A stretch of DNA of 17,152 nt from Gemmatimonadota bacterium (GTDB taxonomy: Bacteria > JBHIER01 > G020348925): contig CP070758.1 in NCBI GenBank assembly GCA_020348925.1, positions 1,992,862 to 2,010,013 on the forward strand. The letters are read 5' to 3'. Below, piece after piece: positions 1,576 through 12,331 of this stretch. The notes beneath the pieces are model-generated. The model saw nothing but the letters and a program-made list of their open reading frames with translations, did not search any database and was not told where the DNA came from. Position numbers and translations under genes: made by a program. Numbering within the stretch: the first letter of the stretch is position 1; every line of letters begins with the position of its first letter.

Positions 1576-2181
1576 TCAAACAAGCTTTTGGCCGAGCTTA
1601 TAGGCTTTCTCAAAATAATACTCGACCCCTCTGTGTTCGATATCCCCGGCGTACATGTCCCCCACCGTCCTGGCATTCAGCGCATCCTTGATGGTCCCTC
1701 TGATAAGCGGCGTGGCCTGATCACAAAATCGTCTGTACAGTGGCCGGATGATGCCGGACGTGACAATAATAATTGCCCTTCGTTTCTTTTCCGATCGAGG
1801 ACGGGGGCACCCGTGTATGGTCAAGTAGCTCTTCTCAGGTGTGCTGAATGTCCAGCAGAGCCTTTCGAGAAACGCCATCATGAGTGCTGTGGCGTACCCC
1901 ATATGCACGGGTGTTCCGAAAATAAGCGAATCGGATTTGAGGACATCCTCGTAAAGAGCGTCCATATCATCCCGGATCGAGCAGGGAGCCATCGGCTCCT
2001 TCGTTTTGCTCTCCCGGCAGACGAGACAATTCCTGCAGAACTGAATGTCGTAATCAATCAGGTTGAGCTTCTTGACGTGGCAATCCGGGTGTCTGGCCTT
2101 CACCCCTTCCACTGCTTTGTCAACCAGTGCATCGGTTGCTTTCCCTTTTCGCGGGCTTCCGACGATGGCAAGAAGATTCAT
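1576..2181 (-). CDS. NADPH-dependent FMN reductase / iron-sulfur flavoprotein (Isf-like)
   Basis: A 201-residue flavodoxin-fold protein. The N-terminus MNLLAIVGSPRKGKAT is the beta-strand and phosphate-binding loop typical of the NADPH-dependent FMN reductase family. Residues 49-67 carry CxxCxxC followed by a fourth Cys after 11 residues (C49, C52, C55, C67). This resembles the compact Cys motif of archaeal and anaerobe Isf proteins, which bind FMN and a [4Fe-4S] cluster and pass electrons singly. FGTPVHMG at 88-95 is the usual second flavin loop. The frame stays open upstream to 2277, but I chose the ATG at 2181 because GGGAG lies 9 bases upstream and the flavin loop is then N-terminal, as in the family. 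A cytoplasmic electron-transfer or reductase role is likely; the partner is unknown. It lies 375 bases downstream of the PAP2 gene, so membership of the ergothioneine operon is doubtful. Confidence 0.85.
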   Translation of the reverse strand: MNLLAIVGSPRKGKATDALVDKAVEGVKARHPDCHVKKLNLIDYDIQFCRNCLVCRESKTKEPMAPCSIRDDMDALYEDVLKSDSLIFGTPVHMGYATALMMAFLERLCWTFSTPEKSYLTIHGCPRPRSEKKRRAIIIVTSGIIRPLYRRFCDQATPLIRGTIKDALNARTVGDMYAGDIEHRGVEYYFEKAYKLGQKLV

Positions 2182-2556
2182 GTCAGTGTCTCCCATGTGA
2201 GGTAAGGTTTCATGCCAGTGACCTCCTGCATCCTCGAAGAAGTGACTCCGGTTCGTCTGGGCAGTTGTTGCGAGCATCGGGCCGTCGGCGCCGGTGGTGT
2301 TTCAGAAGACGGTTTCCTTCGAGCCCGGAGAAAGATTTCCTTCGATTATCCTGACAATAGGAACTCGGTTTCATCATAACATCCTCTGCGTGCAAAGTTT
2401 TTGAAACATATGAAATTTACGCACAATAGTCACGTCTCCTCGATTTCAAGGACCATCGGCATGGAAAAGAAGCCGCGGTTTGGCAGCCTCTCGCCCTCCC
2501 GCTTCGAAAAAAGTGGGGCGAAACCTCCCTCAACCGGACCCCGGTCTCACGTGAGA
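2182..2556. other. Intergenic region between PAP2 and flavoprotein genes
   Basis: No family-like coding sequence was found on either strand. Immediately after the PAP2 stop codon is a perfect 14-bp palindrome (2543-2556, annotated separately). About 35 bases further along the minus strand comes a run of six T (ACTTTTTTCG), but the two do not form one clean intrinsic terminator. The flavoprotein promoter should lie here; I could not pick a convincing -35/-10 pair. Confidence 0.4.
2543..2556. repeat. Perfect 14-bp palindrome at the 3' end of the PAP2 gene
   Basis: The sequence GTCTCACGTGAGAC is a perfect palindrome that abuts the TAG stop of the PAP2 gene. It could be a protein-binding site or a stem at the 3' end of the ergothioneine operon transcript. 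A hairpin would have a very small loop, and no T-run follows directly, so a simple intrinsic terminator is not supported. Confidence 0.35.
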
Positions 2557-3375
2557 CTAAAAAGTTCCCAAAAAGCACATGACAATGGTTCCATGCCCAG
2601 GTCCTATGCTGAGTTTGAAACTGTCCGGTAAAGGGATCCCCAAAAACGCGTCAGTCAAAAACGCACTGACAAAATACCCCAAAGCGATTCCGGCCAGGAC
2701 ATCTGAGGGATAGTGTTTCCGGGCTTCAACCCGGGACCACGCCATGCCAACAGTGATTGTTTCCAGTCCCAGCTTGGCTCCGGTCCGAAATGTCGGCGAG
2801 ACCGGCCAATGATTCATATTTCTGGAGGCAAGCATGATCTGAGAGGCCGCATAGGAAGTGTGTAATGAGGGAAAACTGGTGAAATCCGATTCAGCATTCG
2901 GCCGTTCCCGTCCAATCGTATTCTGGAGAAACCGCGTCATGTGGAAGGTCGCCTGATTCGCCGAAACTCCCACCGCGACACCCTTTGATTTGGCACATAT
3001 CCAATCTGCCGCGTGTTCGCCGCCTGGTGTTGCCAAGACACTCAGCCAGTAGGCTATATTCGAAGCCCGAATGAGAGTGGCGCTTGCCCGACAAGCGTTC
3101 GCCTGCGACCCGAAGACCGGTGTCCGCTCAACCGCCCATTCCGCCACCTCTTCATCCATGTCATGAATCTGGAGAACAACGGCACCCAGGAGAGGAGCCC
3201 AAACTCGAGGCGTCCGCAGGGCATTTTTTGCAGCCTGACCGGCCCGCGACCATCCTGGGGTCAGTGTCACATCCTGTCCCCACCTGCGATTATTATGAAG
3301 CGTTCCGCAGCTCATCATCAACGCACTTCCACAAAGGAGACCCATAATCCGGGTTACCGTTTGAGATCTATTCAT
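2557..3375 (-). CDS. PAP2-family phosphatase, exported or membrane-attached
   Basis: A 272-residue member of the type 2 phosphatidic acid phosphatase superfamily, whose members dephosphorylate lipid or other phosphomonoesters, usually at or outside the inner membrane. The three signature motifs are visible. Motif 1 is Q151-NTIGRE-RP, where the usual first Lys/Arg is Gln. Motif 2 is PSLH at 169-172 with the catalytic His172. Motif 3 is SR at 214-215 followed by H221-YPS-D225. The N-terminus (1-23) is a signal sequence ending in LMMSC, a weak lipobox with candidate acylated Cys23. The start ATG has no clear Shine-Dalgarno sequence and lies 18 bases after the stop of the ergothioneine synthase gene, so translation is probably by reinitiation or coupling. 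Its position makes it the last gene of the operon, but no step of ergothioneine synthesis needs it. The fold is secure; the substrate is unknown. Confidence 0.85.
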   Translation of the reverse strand: MNRSQTVTRIMGLLCGSALMMSCGTLHNNRRWGQDVTLTPGWSRAGQAAKNALRTPRVWAPLLGAVVLQIHDMDEEVAEWAVERTPVFGSQANACRASATLIRASNIAYWLSVLATPGGEHAADWICAKSKGVAVGVSANQATFHMTRFLQNTIGRERPNAESDFTSFPSLHTSYAASQIMLASRNMNHWPVSPTFRTGAKLGLETITVGMAWSRVEARKHYPSDVLAGIALGYFVSAFLTDAFLGIPLPDSFKLSIGPGHGTIVMCFLGTF

Positions 3376-3393
3376 CGTTTATCGACCATACGG

Positions 3394-6300
3394 TTATTTG
3401 CACGCCACAAAACGTACAATCTTTTTTGAACCTTCGATGATCTCCTTCAATAAAAGAATGACCCGTTCTATCTCTTCTTCACTGTTTTCATATCCCAGGG
3501 AGAAGCGCAGAGCACAATGGGCTTGTTCCTCCGTCAGCCCCATGGCCAGCAGGGCGTGGGACGGTTCGGGAGAACCGGAGTGGCAGGCCGATCCGGATGA
3601 AAAGCAGACGCCCCGCCTGTCCATTTCCAAGACAATCGATTCACCTCTGAAACCGGGCAAGGTCACATTGAGCGTATTGGGCAGCCGTCTGCTTCTGTGA
3701 CCGTTGAACTCATAATCTTCCACAATATCACCAATACCTGCCTCAAGACGATTGCGCAGTTTTTTTAACCGCTCCATGTGCCCGAGATATGCTGGGACGT
3801 TCTCCATGGCTCTCCCAAAGCCCGCGATCTCCAAGACATTTTCAGTGCCGGATCGAATTCCACCCTCCTGACCTCCCCCATGAATCAAGCTTTCCAAACG
3901 AACTCCCTTTCGAAGGTACAATGCTCCGACACCTTTCGGGCCGTGCACCTTGTGACCTGAAAGGGTTAATAAATCGACACCGAGTGCCTCCACATCCACA
4001 GCTATTTTCCCCAGGGCCTGAGCGGCATCGGTATGGAAAAGAATGCCCTCCGCTTTGGCTACTTGGGCCAGCTCTTCTATGGGTTGCCTGGACCCGGTTT
4101 CGTTATTGGCCAACATGATCGTGACCAAACAGGTCCGATCTGTGATGGATTTCTCCAGATCATTCGGCCTGACACAGCCTGTTTCATCCACGTTCAGATA
4201 CGTCACATCAACATCATAGTTCTCCAGCCATCGACAGGTGTCCAACACCGCCGGGTGTTCGATGGAGGAGGTGATGATGTGATTCTTCTTGCCCCAATTG
4301 GCAAAGGCGACACCTTTGATGGCCAGATTGTTCGCTTCCGAGCCGCAGCCGGTGAATACGATTCTTTTGGCCGTGCAATTGATCTGGAGGGCCACTTGAC
4401 ACCGCGCCTCTTCAACGATCCTTCCGGATTTTCTCCCCTCCCGATGGATGCTTGAGGCATTACCGTACACGTCCATGATCTCCTGCATATACTCTTTCAC
4501 CTCAGGAGCAAGGGGCGTCGTGGCATTATGATCCAGATAGATTGTTTCTGTGGGTTTCACGTCTTGTCCTCTAAATCTATCTAAGTGTTGTCTTTCTTCG
4601 GAATCGATGATGAGTGGTGCACCGCCATCATCCATTTTGACCACATCACATAAGAGCGACTTGTAGACAGGAAAGCCGGATATGGGATCACAGTTGCCCG
4701 CGTCGGTCAGCTCATTAATATTGCATTCCTGCCAGGCTCTCGGTCCCACAGGGCTGCCACCGGCATGATTGGCCTCGATGGCACCTCTGACAATATCCTC
4801 CGTGACCGCGGCCCGCATGACGACCGAACCTCTGGGGCTTTTAACATGCACTTCGTCGCCATTCCGTATCCCTCGCGCTCGAGCGTCATCGATATTGATG
4901 GTGACCGTGGGCTCGGGTTGTTCCCTGGACAAACGCCCTATGCCGTGGTGCTGCGTATGAAAACTGGTTCTCAGCCTGGCTCCGGAATTGAAGACCAGCG
5001 GGAAGTCCTTCAACAATTCCGGTTGAGATATCGGCCCCTCTTTCGGCTCCGTGAATTTGGGGAGCGGCTCGTACCCATACTCCTCCAGGATGGTGGAGGC
5101 GATCTCGAACTTTCCCGAAGGCGTATCGAAGCCGGCCCTGCCATCGGGACGGAGCAAGCCCTTTTCCCATTTCCTGTATTGCATCATCTCCGTTTCGATG
5201 GAAACCGTGCCGCCTGCTGCTCTGACGTCCTCCAGGGTAAAGCCCGATCCTTTCAACACGTACCGCAGGAGCTCCTCCTGCGTCTGCGGATAGAGATGAC
5301 CGTATCCCAGCCTTTGTGCCAGTTCCGCAATAATAAAAAAATCGCTCCGCGCTTCACCCAACGGTTCGATCACCCGTTCCCGAATACGAAACGTCGAGCC
5401 GTAGGTCATGTAGGAGACATTTTCATAGTACGTCGTGGCGGGCAGAACGATATCGGCATACGCGGCATCGGCCGTGAGCTGCCGGTCTACGGTCACCAGG
5501 AAATCGAGCGCATTCAGTGTTTTCCTCCAGACGGACGGATTGGGCCACGAGGTCGTAATCGAGCTGCCCAAAATAATCAATGACCGGATCTTGTAGGGCT
5601 TTCCCTGTAAAACGGACTCCGGCAGCGCCACAGCATGGGCCTCATCCCTGTATTTGACATAGATGGGAAACCTATCCCGCCCCAACCTCGGTCCCACATC
5701 GGGATTGGCAATGAGGCCTTCTCTGTTTATCGGAAAACGATTTTTTTCCATGGAAAAACAAAGACCCCCCGGCACATCGAGCTGACCGGCCAGGGCCCAG
5801 AGAACCAGGCTCGCCCGAATGTTTTGGACCCCGGAGTTGCTGTACTCCAGACCGGTGTACATGAGTTGAGACACACCCTTGGCCCCTGCCAGTCTTCGGG
5901 CCAAGGTGACCACCGTTTTGGCAGGAACACCGGTAATGTGCTCCACGACCTCCGGCCGAAAATGCTGAACGTATTCCACCAGGCCCTCAAAACCGATCGT
6001 CCAGTCTCGAACGAAGGTTTCGTCGTAGAGTTCCTCCTCGATCAGAACATGGATCAGGCCCAAAGCGAGGGCACCATCGGTACCCGGCCGGATCGGAATC
6101 CACTGAGCCCCGGTCAGCTTTGCGGTCGCCGTTCTTCTGGGATCGATGACGACGACATCCGCCCCGCGTTTCCGGGCCTCGAAAATCCGGTGCATGTCAA
6201 TCGGCGGAAGATCCGTGGCCGGATTGGTTCCCCAGACCACAATGAGCTCTCCATTCTCGATATCCGAGAACATGTTCATAAACATACGGCCCATGGTCAG

Positions 6301-6798
6301 ATGGGGTGCGATCATGCCGTACGCCACATAGCACAACGCCCCGACGCCCATGGAATTGGGCGATCCGAAGGGAAACAGTACGCTGTTCGCAGAGGATATG
6401 GCAACGCCCTTGGGCTGATACACATCACACATGGACAGTTCGAAACTGCCAACGCCGGTATAGATGGCTGTCGCTTCCGCACCGGATGTCTCCTTTATCG
6501 ATGTCAAGTTGTCGACAACGGTCTCATACGCTTCATCCCATGAGATCCGCTCAAACTCGTAGGTTCCCTTCCGCCCCCTTCTCTTCATGGGATACAAAAG
6601 ACGATCTTCGGAATAGACGATGTCCGGCGAATGCTCCCCCAGTTTACAGATAATTCCCATGGGTGTGCCTTCGTCAGGTCTGACGCTGACGAGCCTCCCC
6701 TTGTCATCGAATGCAGCAACAATCCAACAGCCGGCGCTGCAAATTCCGCAAATGGCCCGTTTTTCAAAATTCGTATTCAAGGCTGCCACACTGTTCAC
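3394..6798 (-). CDS. Metallopterin-dependent ergothioneine synthase (MES): bis-MGD oxidoreductase fused to cysteine desulfurase
   Basis: A single 1134-residue protein with two modules. Residues 1-720 form a DMSO-reductase-family molybdopterin/tungstopterin enzyme. An N-terminal [4Fe-4S] site is formed by C17, C20, C24 and C51. Cys156 (GVGALCYVAYG) is the candidate metal ligand, and the dinucleotide-binding domain is at about 600-720. After a linker (about 721-750), residues 751-1134 are a NifS/IscS-type desulfurase: IYLDHNATTP start, H848 (SSIEHP), D924 and Q927 (HTDAAQ), PLP lysine K950 (SGHKVHGPKG) and persulfide-forming C1072 (SSGSACHSG). This architecture matches the characterised Caldithrix abyssi enzyme (recalled from the literature). 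There the desulfurase module supplies cysteine sulfur and the acetylene-hydratase-like metallopterin module inserts it into the C2-H of trimethylhistidine. The start is GTG, overlapping the EgtD stop by 4 bases (GTGA), with a weak ribosome site that implies coupling. No in-frame Met precedes the desulfurase closely, so the fusion looks real. A plain formate dehydrogenase or thiosulfate reductase is less likely. Confidence 0.92.
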   Translation of the reverse strand: MNSVAALNTNFEKRAICGICSAGCWIVAAFDDKGRLVSVRPDEGTPMGIICKLGEHSPDIVYSEDRLLYPMKRRGRKGTYEFERISWDEAYETVVDNLTSIKETSGAEATAIYTGVGSFELSMCDVYQPKGVAISSANSVLFPFGSPNSMGVGALCYVAYGMIAPHLTMGRMFMNMFSDIENGELIVVWGTNPATDLPPIDMHRIFEARKRGADVVVIDPRRTATAKLTGAQWIPIRPGTDGALALGLIHVLIEEELYDETFVRDWTIGFEGLVEYVQHFRPEVVEHITGVPAKTVVTLARRLAGAKGVSQLMYTGLEYSNSGVQNIRASLVLWALAGQLDVPGGLCFSMEKNRFPINREGLIANPDVGPRLGRDRFPIYVKYRDEAHAVALPESVLQGKPYKIRSLIILGSSITTSWPNPSVWRKTLNALDFLVTVDRQLTADAAYADIVLPATTYYENVSYMTYGSTFRIRERVIEPLGEARSDFFIIAELAQRLGYGHLYPQTQEELLRYVLKGSGFTLEDVRAAGGTVSIETEMMQYRKWEKGLLRPDGRAGFDTPSGKFEIASTILEEYGYEPLPKFTEPKEGPISQPELLKDFPLVFNSGARLRTSFHTQHHGIGRLSREQPEPTVTINIDDARARGIRNGDEVHVKSPRGSVVMRAAVTEDIVRGAIEANHAGGSPVGPRAWQECNINELTDAGNCDPISGFPVYKSLLCDVVKMDDGGAPLIIDSEERQHLDRFRGQDVKPTETIYLDHNATTPLAPEVKEYMQEIMDVYGNASSIHREGRKSGRIVEEARCQVALQINCTAKRIVFTGCGSEANNLAIKGVAFANWGKKNHIITSSIEHPAVLDTCRWLENYDVDVTYLNVDETGCVRPNDLEKSITDRTCLVTIMLANNETGSRQPIEELAQVAKAEGILFHTDAAQALGKIAVDVEALGVDLLTLSGHKVHGPKGVGALYLRKGVRLESLIHGGGQEGGIRSGTENVLEIAGFGRAMENVPAYLGHMERLKKLRNRLEAGIGDIVEDYEFNGHRSRRLPNTLNVTLPGFRGESIVLEMDRRGVCFSSGSACHSGSPEPSHALLAMGLTEEQAHCALRFSLGYENSEEEIERVILLLKEIIEGSKKIVRFVACK

Positions 6799-7811
6799 TT
6801 TAACAAGCTTTTCTCTTTATGGGGTTGAAACAATGTCACGTTGAAATATCGTTTCGTATCAAACCATTGTTTGATAATTTCCATACCCACCTCATCCGCC
6901 AACTGATCGATGGCCTGCAGAGAGAATTTATGAGAATTTTCCGTATGAATTCTCTCGTTTTTCTTGAAATGATAGGACCGATCCAAATCGGCAATATACA
7001 CATCCTGCTCGCAGGTGCTGATCAAATACATCTCAATGCGACTGTTCTCTTCGTTGTACACGGCCTTGTGCCTAAACGTATTCGGATCGAATTCCCCGCC
7101 CAATTCCCGGTTGATCCTGGACAGCAGATTCAAATTAAATGTCGCTGTGACATACTGATTATCGTTATAGGCCTGTTCCAATGCGCGTCTCTCTTTGATA
7201 AGATCAAAACCGATGAGTAAGTAATCTTGGCTCGATAATGTTTTGACAGTGTTTTGGAGAAACCGAATCGCCTCCTGCTGCTCAAAATTCCCAATACTGG
7301 AGCCCAGCCAGAGAATGAGCTTTGGTCGTTCATCCCGCATGTCGATTTGTCTGAGCCCCTCTTCATACTCTGCGGCGATGGAAATAATTTCCAGATCTTC
7401 GTATTGCTCCAGCAGCGAAATCGAGCTCTCTTTCAACATTTTCTTAGAAATATCGATGGGACTGTAGGTGACTTTATCGTGTTGGTTCAGCAGTTCCTCG
7501 ATGATCAATTGGGTTTTGATGCAACTGCCGCTGCCCAGTTCAACCAGGACAAGATCTGTCGGAAGACATGAAACGATATCCTCGGAAAAGGTTTTCAGGA
7601 TCTCCGTCTCGGCACGGGTCAAATAGTACTCCTCCAATCGACATATCTTCTCAAATAGCAGGGACCCTTGATAGTCATAAAAATAGATGCAGGGGATGTT
7701 CTTGGGCGTCTGTCTGAGTCCCCGGTCTACATCTTTGGCAAAAGAATCTGCGAATATTTCCAAATCGGTCGTAATCATTGTCGAACGATCCTGAATGGAT
7801 GAGGACGGCAT
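6795..7811 (-). CDS. egtD: L-histidine N-alpha-methyltransferase EgtD
   Basis: A 338-residue SAM-dependent enzyme that trimethylates the alpha-amino group of histidine to hercynine, the first step of ergothioneine synthesis. It matches EgtD along its length: the IYFYD-GS-LFE-EYYLTR N-terminal block (42-66), the SAM loop ELGSGSCIKT (91-100), PIDIS (118-122), LGSSIGNF (169-176), AYNDNQYVTATFNLNLL (214-230) and TENSHKF (290-296). Residues that bind histidine in the mycobacterial enzyme (Tyr56, Asn166, Tyr206, Glu282, Ser284, from memory) have plausible counterparts in Tyr63, Asn175, Tyr215, Glu291 and Ser293, so true histidine trimethylase activity is expected. AAAGGAG lies 8 bases before the ATG, a strong ribosome site. 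It follows the transporter gene by 42 bases and overlaps the MES start by 4. No egtB, egtC, egtE or rhodanese-like EanB is in the window, consistent with MES doing the sulfur step. Confidence 0.95.
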   Translation of the reverse strand: MPSSSIQDRSTMITTDLEIFADSFAKDVDRGLRQTPKNIPCIYFYDYQGSLLFEKICRLEEYYLTRAETEILKTFSEDIVSCLPTDLVLVELGSGSCIKTQLIIEELLNQHDKVTYSPIDISKKMLKESSISLLEQYEDLEIISIAAEYEEGLRQIDMRDERPKLILWLGSSIGNFEQQEAIRFLQNTVKTLSSQDYLLIGFDLIKERRALEQAYNDNQYVTATFNLNLLSRINRELGGEFDPNTFRHKAVYNEENSRIEMYLISTCEQDVYIADLDRSYHFKKNERIHTENSHKFSLQAIDQLADEVGMEIIKQWFDTKRYFNVTLFQPHKEKSLLK

Positions 7812-10226: not shown

Positions 10227-12236
10227 CTATTTCAGGAAAACAATCTTTTTCGTGTCGACAATGCCGTTCCCCTTCAGACAGCAGAAATAGAGGCCTGACG
10301 CTGTGTGTTTGCCCGCATCGTCCAGACCGTCCCAATGAACCGAATTAACACCTGGGTCGCACCGTCCATTGACCAACACACGAATTCTTTCACCGAGGAT
10401 GGTGTAGACAGACAACTCGACGTGCGTCGAAAGCGGAATGTGAAATTGAATCGTCGTGGACGGATTGAACGGGTTCGGGTGATTCTGCAACAATCGGAAG
10501 CATTCCGGGACGTTATGCTGGTCCTCGTCAGATTGTACGGACGTAAACGGATTCAGTCCAGCGTCGTAGACAATCTCGCCGCCCACGATCGTCATCTCCG
10601 AGACCAGATCGATCAGTTCCGCGGGACTCATGGTGTACAGGTCGTGGGACCAGATGACGAGGTCGGCGTACTTCCCCGGTTCCAGCGAGCCGGTGGTGGA
10701 CTCGGCGAATCCGGCGTAGGCCGATCCCATGGTGTGGACGCGGAGGGCTTCCCCCATGGTGAGTTTTTCACTGGGATTGTATTCGAACCCGGATTGTGGG
10801 CTCCGCCGCAGCGTGGCGCCGTGGAAAGCATATTTGGGCTCCTGGTAGGGCGAGGCCGGTACGTCACAGCCGAAGGCCAGGGGAATCCCCATATCCAGCA
10901 TGGTCTTGAGCGGCAGATAGCGTTCCATGGTGAGACTGTCCGTGGCTTCACTGATGCCATCGCTGTACCACGCAATCCACTGGGGCTGGGTGGAGAGAAT
11001 GATGTTGTTCTCCTTCATCCGCTGCACAGCGGCTGTGGTCGGAAAGAAACCATGTTCGATCCGGTGCCGGGGATCGGGTCGGGGACTGGCCCCCATGGCC
11101 TCTTCAAAGGCCGTCAGGACCATGTCGATGCCTTGATCCCCTCCCACATGAATCGCCACCTGAAGGCCGGTATCGTGGAGTATTCGCACGATGCGGTTTA
11201 TCTCCTCCTGGGAATGGTAGGGATAGGAAATCTCTGAGGCATACAGGCTCTTGTCGTACATTAAAATCGTCCGCGCGGCAATCCCGCCGTCCATGGCCAG
11301 TTTCCAGCCGGCGAACCTGAAAAGACCCGAGTCGTCCGGCCGAAATATCCGGGCAAGAGAATCGGCCTCTTCTTCGTCATCGATATAGAGCAATGTGTAG
11401 AGCCGGACCTTGAGCCGGCCGCTTTCGGCGAATTCTCTGTAGAGCAGGATGTCCCTGGCGCTGCCGACAATGACATCCTGAATCGAGGTGTACCCGGCCT
11501 CTAAGCAGAGCTGCTGACCCCGTTCGATATCCTCGAATTTTTCCTCGTCGCTGCGACCGCCGTATCCGGTGGCATGCTTCCCCACCAGGTTTTCGGCCGG
11601 ATAATGGGATAAGATGCCTGTCGGTTGGCCATGATCGTCGTGCATGATGAGGCTGCCTGGGGGATTCGGTGTGCTGCTGTCGATTTCTGCGATTTCCAGG
11701 GCAGGGGTGTTCACCACGGCGAACTGACCGCTGGAATGACGAAGATACGCCGGATTGAGCGGCGCGACCGAGTCGATGTCCCAGCGATCCACGGTCTCAC
11801 CGGACTGCAGGGCGAAACCCTGATTACCCGAGATCCAATCTCCCGGACTCAACTGCTGAGCATAGTCTCCCACAACCTGCAGGAGATCGGCCTTGGAGGT
11901 GACGACGGGATGCCGTATGTTGAGATAACCAGGCCAGAACTGCTGACCGTAATACATCATGTGATAGTGGGAATCGATCAGACCCGGCGTCACGGTTTTC
12001 CCATTGAGATCGATCATTTTGGACTGCGGTCCTGCCAAGGTGAATATATCAGGGTCACTCCCCACGGCGAGTATGGTGTCCCCCTTGACAGCCACCGCCT
12101 GGAAGATATTGTTCTCATCATCGACCGTGATCACCTTTCCGTTGAAAAGGATCAGGTCCGCCTCCTCGAGGGCAAATACGAATGTTGAACCGACAAAAAG
12201 TATCCATCCGATAACCAGCGCTATTCCAGTCTTCAT
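10227..12236 (-). CDS. Secreted amidohydrolase (family 3, YtcJ/NfdA-like) with T9SS C-terminal domain
   Basis: A 669-residue exported metal-dependent amidohydrolase. Residues 1-22 are a signal peptide. The amidohydrolase-3 core follows: VTPGLIDSHYHM with metal ligands His90 and His92, the GWKLAMDGG block with the usual bridging-Lys region, IHVGGDQ, RIEHG and GCDVPASP with the catalytic Asp. Family members hydrolyse N-substituted formamides and other C-N bonds, but the substrate cannot be read from sequence. The last 80 residues are a type IX secretion sorting domain: LLQNHPNPFNPSTTIQF, then a beta-sandwich ending SGLYFCCLKGNG...KKIVFLK. The protein is therefore expected to cross the outer membrane and be surface-attached or released. 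The ATG at 12236 is chosen over the TTG at 12260 because AAGGGGG lies 7 bases upstream and the signal peptide follows at once. It lies 95 bases downstream of the Cys-rich gene. A link to ergothioneine metabolism is possible but only by position. Confidence 0.9.
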   Translation of the reverse strand: MKTGIALVIGWILFVGSTFVFALEEADLILFNGKVITVDDENNIFQAVAVKGDTILAVGSDPDIFTLAGPQSKMIDLNGKTVTPGLIDSHYHMMYYGQQFWPGYLNIRHPVVTSKADLLQVVGDYAQQLSPGDWISGNQGFALQSGETVDRWDIDSVAPLNPAYLRHSSGQFAVVNTPALEIAEIDSSTPNPPGSLIMHDDHGQPTGILSHYPAENLVGKHATGYGGRSDEEKFEDIERGQQLCLEAGYTSIQDVIVGSARDILLYREFAESGRLKVRLYTLLYIDDEEEADSLARIFRPDDSGLFRFAGWKLAMDGGIAARTILMYDKSLYASEISYPYHSQEEINRIVRILHDTGLQVAIHVGGDQGIDMVLTAFEEAMGASPRPDPRHRIEHGFFPTTAAVQRMKENNIILSTQPQWIAWYSDGISEATDSLTMERYLPLKTMLDMGIPLAFGCDVPASPYQEPKYAFHGATLRRSPQSGFEYNPSEKLTMGEALRVHTMGSAYAGFAESTTGSLEPGKYADLVIWSHDLYTMSPAELIDLVSEMTIVGGEIVYDAGLNPFTSVQSDEDQHNVPECFRLLQNHPNPFNPSTTIQFHIPLSTHVELSVYTILGERIRVLVNGRCDPGVNSVHWDGLDDAGKHTASGLYFCCLKGNGIVDTKKIVFLK

Positions 12237-12331
12237 GATTAGCCCCCTTCCAGACTTCAATTTCGAGAAACGTGATTTAAACTTCCTGTACTTTGGATGT
12301 TAGACACGAACAAAAAGTGTCCCGCGCTTTG

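Follow-up and report, generated by a model that had tools for sequence, protein, structure and literature searches.

A predicted operon for oxygen-independent ergothioneine synthesis adjoining an EgtU-like transporter in a Gemmatimonadota genome

The window (the whole 17,152-nucleotide stretch analysed here) contains a run of four minus-strand genes, the enzyme part of which is very probably (a probability of about 0.9) an operon for ergothioneine synthesis without oxygen. The gene order is an ABC ATPase (10111–9359), a binding-domain/permease fusion (9362–7854), egtD (7811–6795), and a 1134-residue fusion protein (6798–3394) assigned as a metallopterin-dependent ergothioneine synthase (MES). 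EgtD is predicted to convert histidine and three SAM to hercynine (trimethylhistidine, TMH). By analogy with the C. abyssi enzyme (CaMES), cysteine sulfur would then pass to C1072, on to C1133, and to a Mo/W site on C156, and TMH would take up the sulfur at the imidazole C2 to give ergothioneine. Gene identity, residues, spacing, phylogeny and transporter association are established here; the chemistry is carried over from CaMES. The upstream ABC importer would most likely retrieve ergothioneine, or else hercynine, from the periplasm or the surrounding medium, a salvage role that we infer.

Organization of the gene run and EgtD

The ATPase and transporter fusion genes overlap by 4 bp, and a spacing of 42 bp separates the permease from egtD. 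The egtD and MES genes also overlap by 4 bp, as the first-pass annotation had recorded, and their reading frames have the sequence 5′-GTGA in common; MES has a GTG start. There are no runs of N within the window and 100-N gaps flank it on both sides, so the gene order lies inside one contig and is not an assembly join. The genome as a whole is a single 5.04 Mb contig with N-joined pieces, and about 300 bases into its 16S gene (L053 5301–5723, about 4.3 kb before the window) the sequence breaks off at a gap of 100 N. Promoter scans gave no excess over shuffles.

A PAP2 phosphatase-like gene (2557–3375) is on the same strand and starts 18 bp past MES, and a predicted amidohydrolase (10227–12260) with a FlgD_ig/type-9-secretion-like C-terminal tail is located upstream of the transporter; at the MES locus L023 there is no match to the former, and the catalytic part of the latter is not conserved. 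A gene for an NADPH-dependent FMN-reductase-like flavoprotein is near MES at three loci (window 1576–2277, L023 9908–10651, and L029 5215–5508).

The 338-residue EgtD (L-histidine N-alpha-methyltransferase) scores 365.2 bits against TIGR03438 in a profile search (cut-off 290.9) and spans the full length of PF10017. Alignment to mycobacterial EgtD places Y63, N175, Y215, E291 and S293 in the expected histidine-site columns, in agreement with the histidine-binding residues proposed at first pass. The protein thus shares its histidine-site residues and full-length fold family with mycobacterial EgtD, although the two are distant in sequence and the window egtD adjoins MES instead of EgtB.

The MES fusion protein

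The fusion contains Molybdopterin (residues 66–495), Molydop_binding (607–714) and Aminotran_5 (753–1113) domains, and its best PDB matches are cysteine desulfurases and acetylene hydratase. The N-terminal [4Fe-4S]/bis-MGD module (about residues 1–735; 6798–4594, minus strand) has Fe-S cysteines Cys17, Cys20, Cys24 and Cys51 and a predicted Mo/W ligand, Cys156 (6333–6331; CaMES Cys153), all invariant in 11 MES homologues. The C-terminal NifS/IscS-type cysteine desulfurase (residues 753–1127; 4542–3418) scores 469 bits with TIGR03402 and 255 bits with Aminotran_5. Residue matches and the homologue alignment assign Lys950 (3951–3949; CaMES Lys952) as the PLP lysine, Cys1072 (3585–3583; CaMES Cys1074) as the persulfide cysteine, and the penultimate residue Cys1133 (3402–3400; CaMES Cys1135) as the relay cysteine.

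The comparison with CaMES was made through published residue numbers and spacings rather than by direct alignment, because no Calditrichota MES found has the published length and numbering of the C. abyssi enzyme. All nine key residues are in the window protein (C17/C20/C24/C51, C156, K950, C1072, C1095 and C1133) and are invariant across the 11 aligned homologues, and invariant or nearly so among homologues more broadly. Mutation work on CaMES showed Cys153, Lys952, Cys1074 and Cys1135 to be essential and Cys1097 to be of little weight, and the four Fe-S cysteines (14/17/21/48) were inferred (Beliaeva and Seebeck, PMC9516567). The spacings equal those of CaMES among the Fe-S cysteines (3/4/27), from the last of these to the metal ligand (105), and from the lysine through the persulfide cysteine (122) and then by 23 and 38 to the relay cysteine; the sole difference is an inter-module linker 5 residues shorter. 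An AlphaFold model of MES built with an 11-row alignment had a mean pLDDT of 48 and was discarded as unusable.

The [4Fe-4S]/bis-pterin module and NifS-type desulfurase (K950, C1072) reported at first pass are therefore present, and the likeness to the C. abyssi architecture drawn there extends to the fusion order and all published functional residues, nearly all at the published spacing, including two absent from that earlier residue list, C156 (metal ligand) and C1133 (relay). CaMES (PMC9516567) and the window protein share fusion order, length (1136 and 1134 residues), Fe-S cysteines, a Cys metal ligand, the PLP lysine, and the persulfide and relay cysteines. Unlike CaMES, the window MES has the shorter linker and is overlapped by egtD and preceded by an EgtU-like transporter. 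On these residues and spacings, it is a further member of the published enzyme class.

Two other readings of the fusion have been weighed. In the first, the fusion joins an unrelated desulfurase to a pterin module that is really a formate dehydrogenase, polysulfide reductase or acetylene hydratase. This reading draws on a general similarity to those families, about 25–30% identity, and is highly improbable. The closest solved relative of the module is acetylene hydratase (2e7z), which also has a Cys metal ligand. Full-length fused homologues are 57–76% identical to the window MES, so the resemblance is not chance, and they form a clade drawn from Nitrospirota, Planctomycetota, Calditrichota, an archaeon and other lineages. 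In a tree of N-terminal modules that includes no experimentally tested MES, the window module falls inside this clade (support 97/98), far from the long branches that carry acetylene hydratase, FdhH, T. thermophilus polysulfide reductase and paralogues from the window genome itself; the grouping with formate dehydrogenases or thiosulfate reductases that the first-pass annotation had named as refuting is not seen, and the module groups with MES homologues instead. Acetylene hydratase itself has no fused desulfurase, and its catalytic Asp13 has no equivalent in the window MES, where the position is Ser21 (CQSCDINC vs CGICSAGC). The active site of formate dehydrogenase has a (Se)Cys-His pair, and this position is Cys156-Tyr157 in the window MES.

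There is likewise little chance that the fusion adds sulfur to some compound other than TMH. Such a role draws on Calditrichota genomes G137 and G138 (L055 12334–13323 and L056 12042–13013), in which MES is 60–62% identical and followed directly by an ATP-grasp-like gene, with no full EgtD match genome-wide (the G137 match is under the cut-off), a setting hinting at a different imidazole substrate there. The window MES is instead overlapped by egtD, and EgtD is present in 10 of the 11 fused-MES genomes in a survey of 386 (Fisher p about 9e-9).

The EgtU-like transporter

The transporter fusion and its ATPase (10111–7854), upstream in the same gene run, were missed at first pass. The 502-residue fusion (9362–7854) has a substrate-binding domain (about residues 30–290; OpuAC 32–286) followed by a permease (about 300–500; BPD_transp_1 327–498), and the best PDB matches of the binding domain are structures of SpEgtUC, from the pneumococcal ergothioneine importer EgtU. 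Its 250-residue partner (10111–9359) is a ProV/EgtUA-like ABC ATPase (TIGR01186 229 bits, under the cut-off), and the order of the two genes is conserved at L023 and other loci. The S. pneumoniae transporter (PMC9732360) likewise combines an ATPase with a fused permease/binding domain, although in the window the binding domain comes before the permease, the reverse of EgtUBC.

The window protein keeps the SpEgtUC cage residues N339, Y341, Y419 and Y443, the contact residues K242, T275, T296, E375 and R379, and also D381; in it the aromatic cage and betaine-carboxylate contacts are represented by K38, Y88, T91, N127, Y129, R166, Y207 and Y231. N127 and E162 are retained in nearly all copies from genomes with EgtD; E162 corresponds to SpEgtUC E375, which contacts the imidazole and is credited with telling ergothioneine from hercynine (PMC9732360). 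The EgtU affinity pattern is absent, with G244, F293 and Y337 replaced by F40, Y88 and F125. This F/Y/F pattern is found in nearly all copies from EgtD genomes, whereas close EgtU relatives in genomes lacking EgtD retain the EgtU pattern. It also occurs in some homologues from EgtD-less genomes and so is not diagnostic; most EgtD-genome copies fall on one side of a binding-domain tree, with exceptions. Given the changed affinity determinants and the non-diagnostic pattern, we refer to the transporter as EgtU-like rather than EgtU.

The association with ergothioneine genes is strong. Of the 386 surveyed genomes, 20 contain a strong full-length transporter match (E up to 1e-80), and EgtD is present in 17 of these, against a background of 52/386 (p about 1e-13, in one sample spanning many families and uncorrected for kinship); of the other three, one has MES but no EgtD detected and two have neither. 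With partial matches included, 19 genomes contain both the transporter and egtD; in 10 of these the two lie no more than 10 kb apart, where about 0.09 would be expected (also uncorrected for kinship). ATPase, fusion and egtD are together at L069, L076–L078, L156–L159 and L162, and at L160 transporter and egtD are 6 kb apart. At L071 the ATPase and fusion are divergent from egtD, and the gene after egtD encodes an EanB-like protein of three rhodanese domains. EgtD and transporter have this triple rhodanese as their partner at L071, and MES in the window and at L023. The genome containing L071 (G045) also has partial EgtU-like fusion copies (L071 3–690 and G045:C82:42900–43205) beside the full copy adjoining egtD.

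From this association and the pocket residues, the transporter is probably an importer of ergothioneine or hercynine. Since it has neither G244 nor the F293/Y337 pattern of EgtU it could carry another betaine, and an ordinary osmoprotectant importer (for glycine betaine, choline or proline betaine) merely situated beside ergothioneine genes would account for F40, Y88 and F125, which agree with the description of the glycine-betaine binder AfProX in PMC9732360, and for a substitution that, as G244F, lowers SpEgtUC affinity about 100-fold (PMC9732360). Such an importer appears unlikely in view of the co-occurrence with and adjacency to egtD over many families, and of the conserved E162 imidazole contact and N127. 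Import of hercynine as the MES substrate, rather than of ergothioneine, is comparably doubtful: loci L156, L157 and L158, with EgtD and transporter, show no sulfur-inserting enzyme nearby, and the F40 pocket is unlike that of the ergothioneine-selective EgtU, but the genome's own EgtD would make TMH, and the discriminating glutamate is conserved.

The conserved importer association is what these loci add to the published MES class, and no description of it was found in the literature searched. Whereas EgtU is found in non-producers, the window-type transporter is in ergothioneine producers, and it accompanies ergothioneine genes whatever the sulfur-insertion route. There is about an even chance that binding-domain-first transporters beside egtD are a separate ergothioneine/hercynine importer family within producers' biosynthetic operons, common to the MES and EanB-type anaerobic routes. 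Such a family would perform the task of EgtU through another kind of pocket, and would imply that ergothioneine is recycled or scavenged by the organisms that make it. If producers do have an importer dedicated to ergothioneine, the compound would seem either to be worth the cost of recycling or to pass from cell to cell, which bears on its role in anaerobes.

Gene order and distribution

The order ATPase, fusion, egtD, MES is found only in the window and at L023, where MES is 76% identical. Nitrospirota, Kuenenia and the archaeon have egtD downstream of MES and no closely similar transporter. In the egtD tree, in which several deep branches are weakly supported, the window and L023 genes are nearest to transporter-linked egtD and apart from the MES-linked egtD of Nitrospirota, Kuenenia and the archaeon. 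Together with the gene orders, this placement hints at a single egtD–transporter module to which MES was joined.

The first-pass annotation correctly took the enzyme class as already described (PMC9516567), but its view that few examples exist does not hold: 55 genomes are listed in the paper that reported the discovery, and fused MES is present in 11 of the 386 genomes surveyed here. A scan of named genomes gave 11 relatives, and MES turned up in 9 genomes when Calditrichota were scanned. As a class MES is fairly widespread, and the window adds a well-formed member with an overlapping egtD.

Genome G048, which carries EgtD and the transporter and no fused MES, has two stand-alone proteins (L085 6120–8447 and L086 6517–8730) that share about 50% identity with the pterin module of MES and have no desulfurase. 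They branch just outside the fused-MES clade in the N-terminal module tree and are possibly a split MES or have another activity. A Spirochaetia MES (L024 4329–7751, genome G060) has unrelated neighbours, and EgtD was not found in that genome assembly, which may be incomplete. In genome G093, MES (L080 7864–11243) is in two overlapping open frames (residues about 10–520 and 523–1134), which reads as a frameshift or assembly error.
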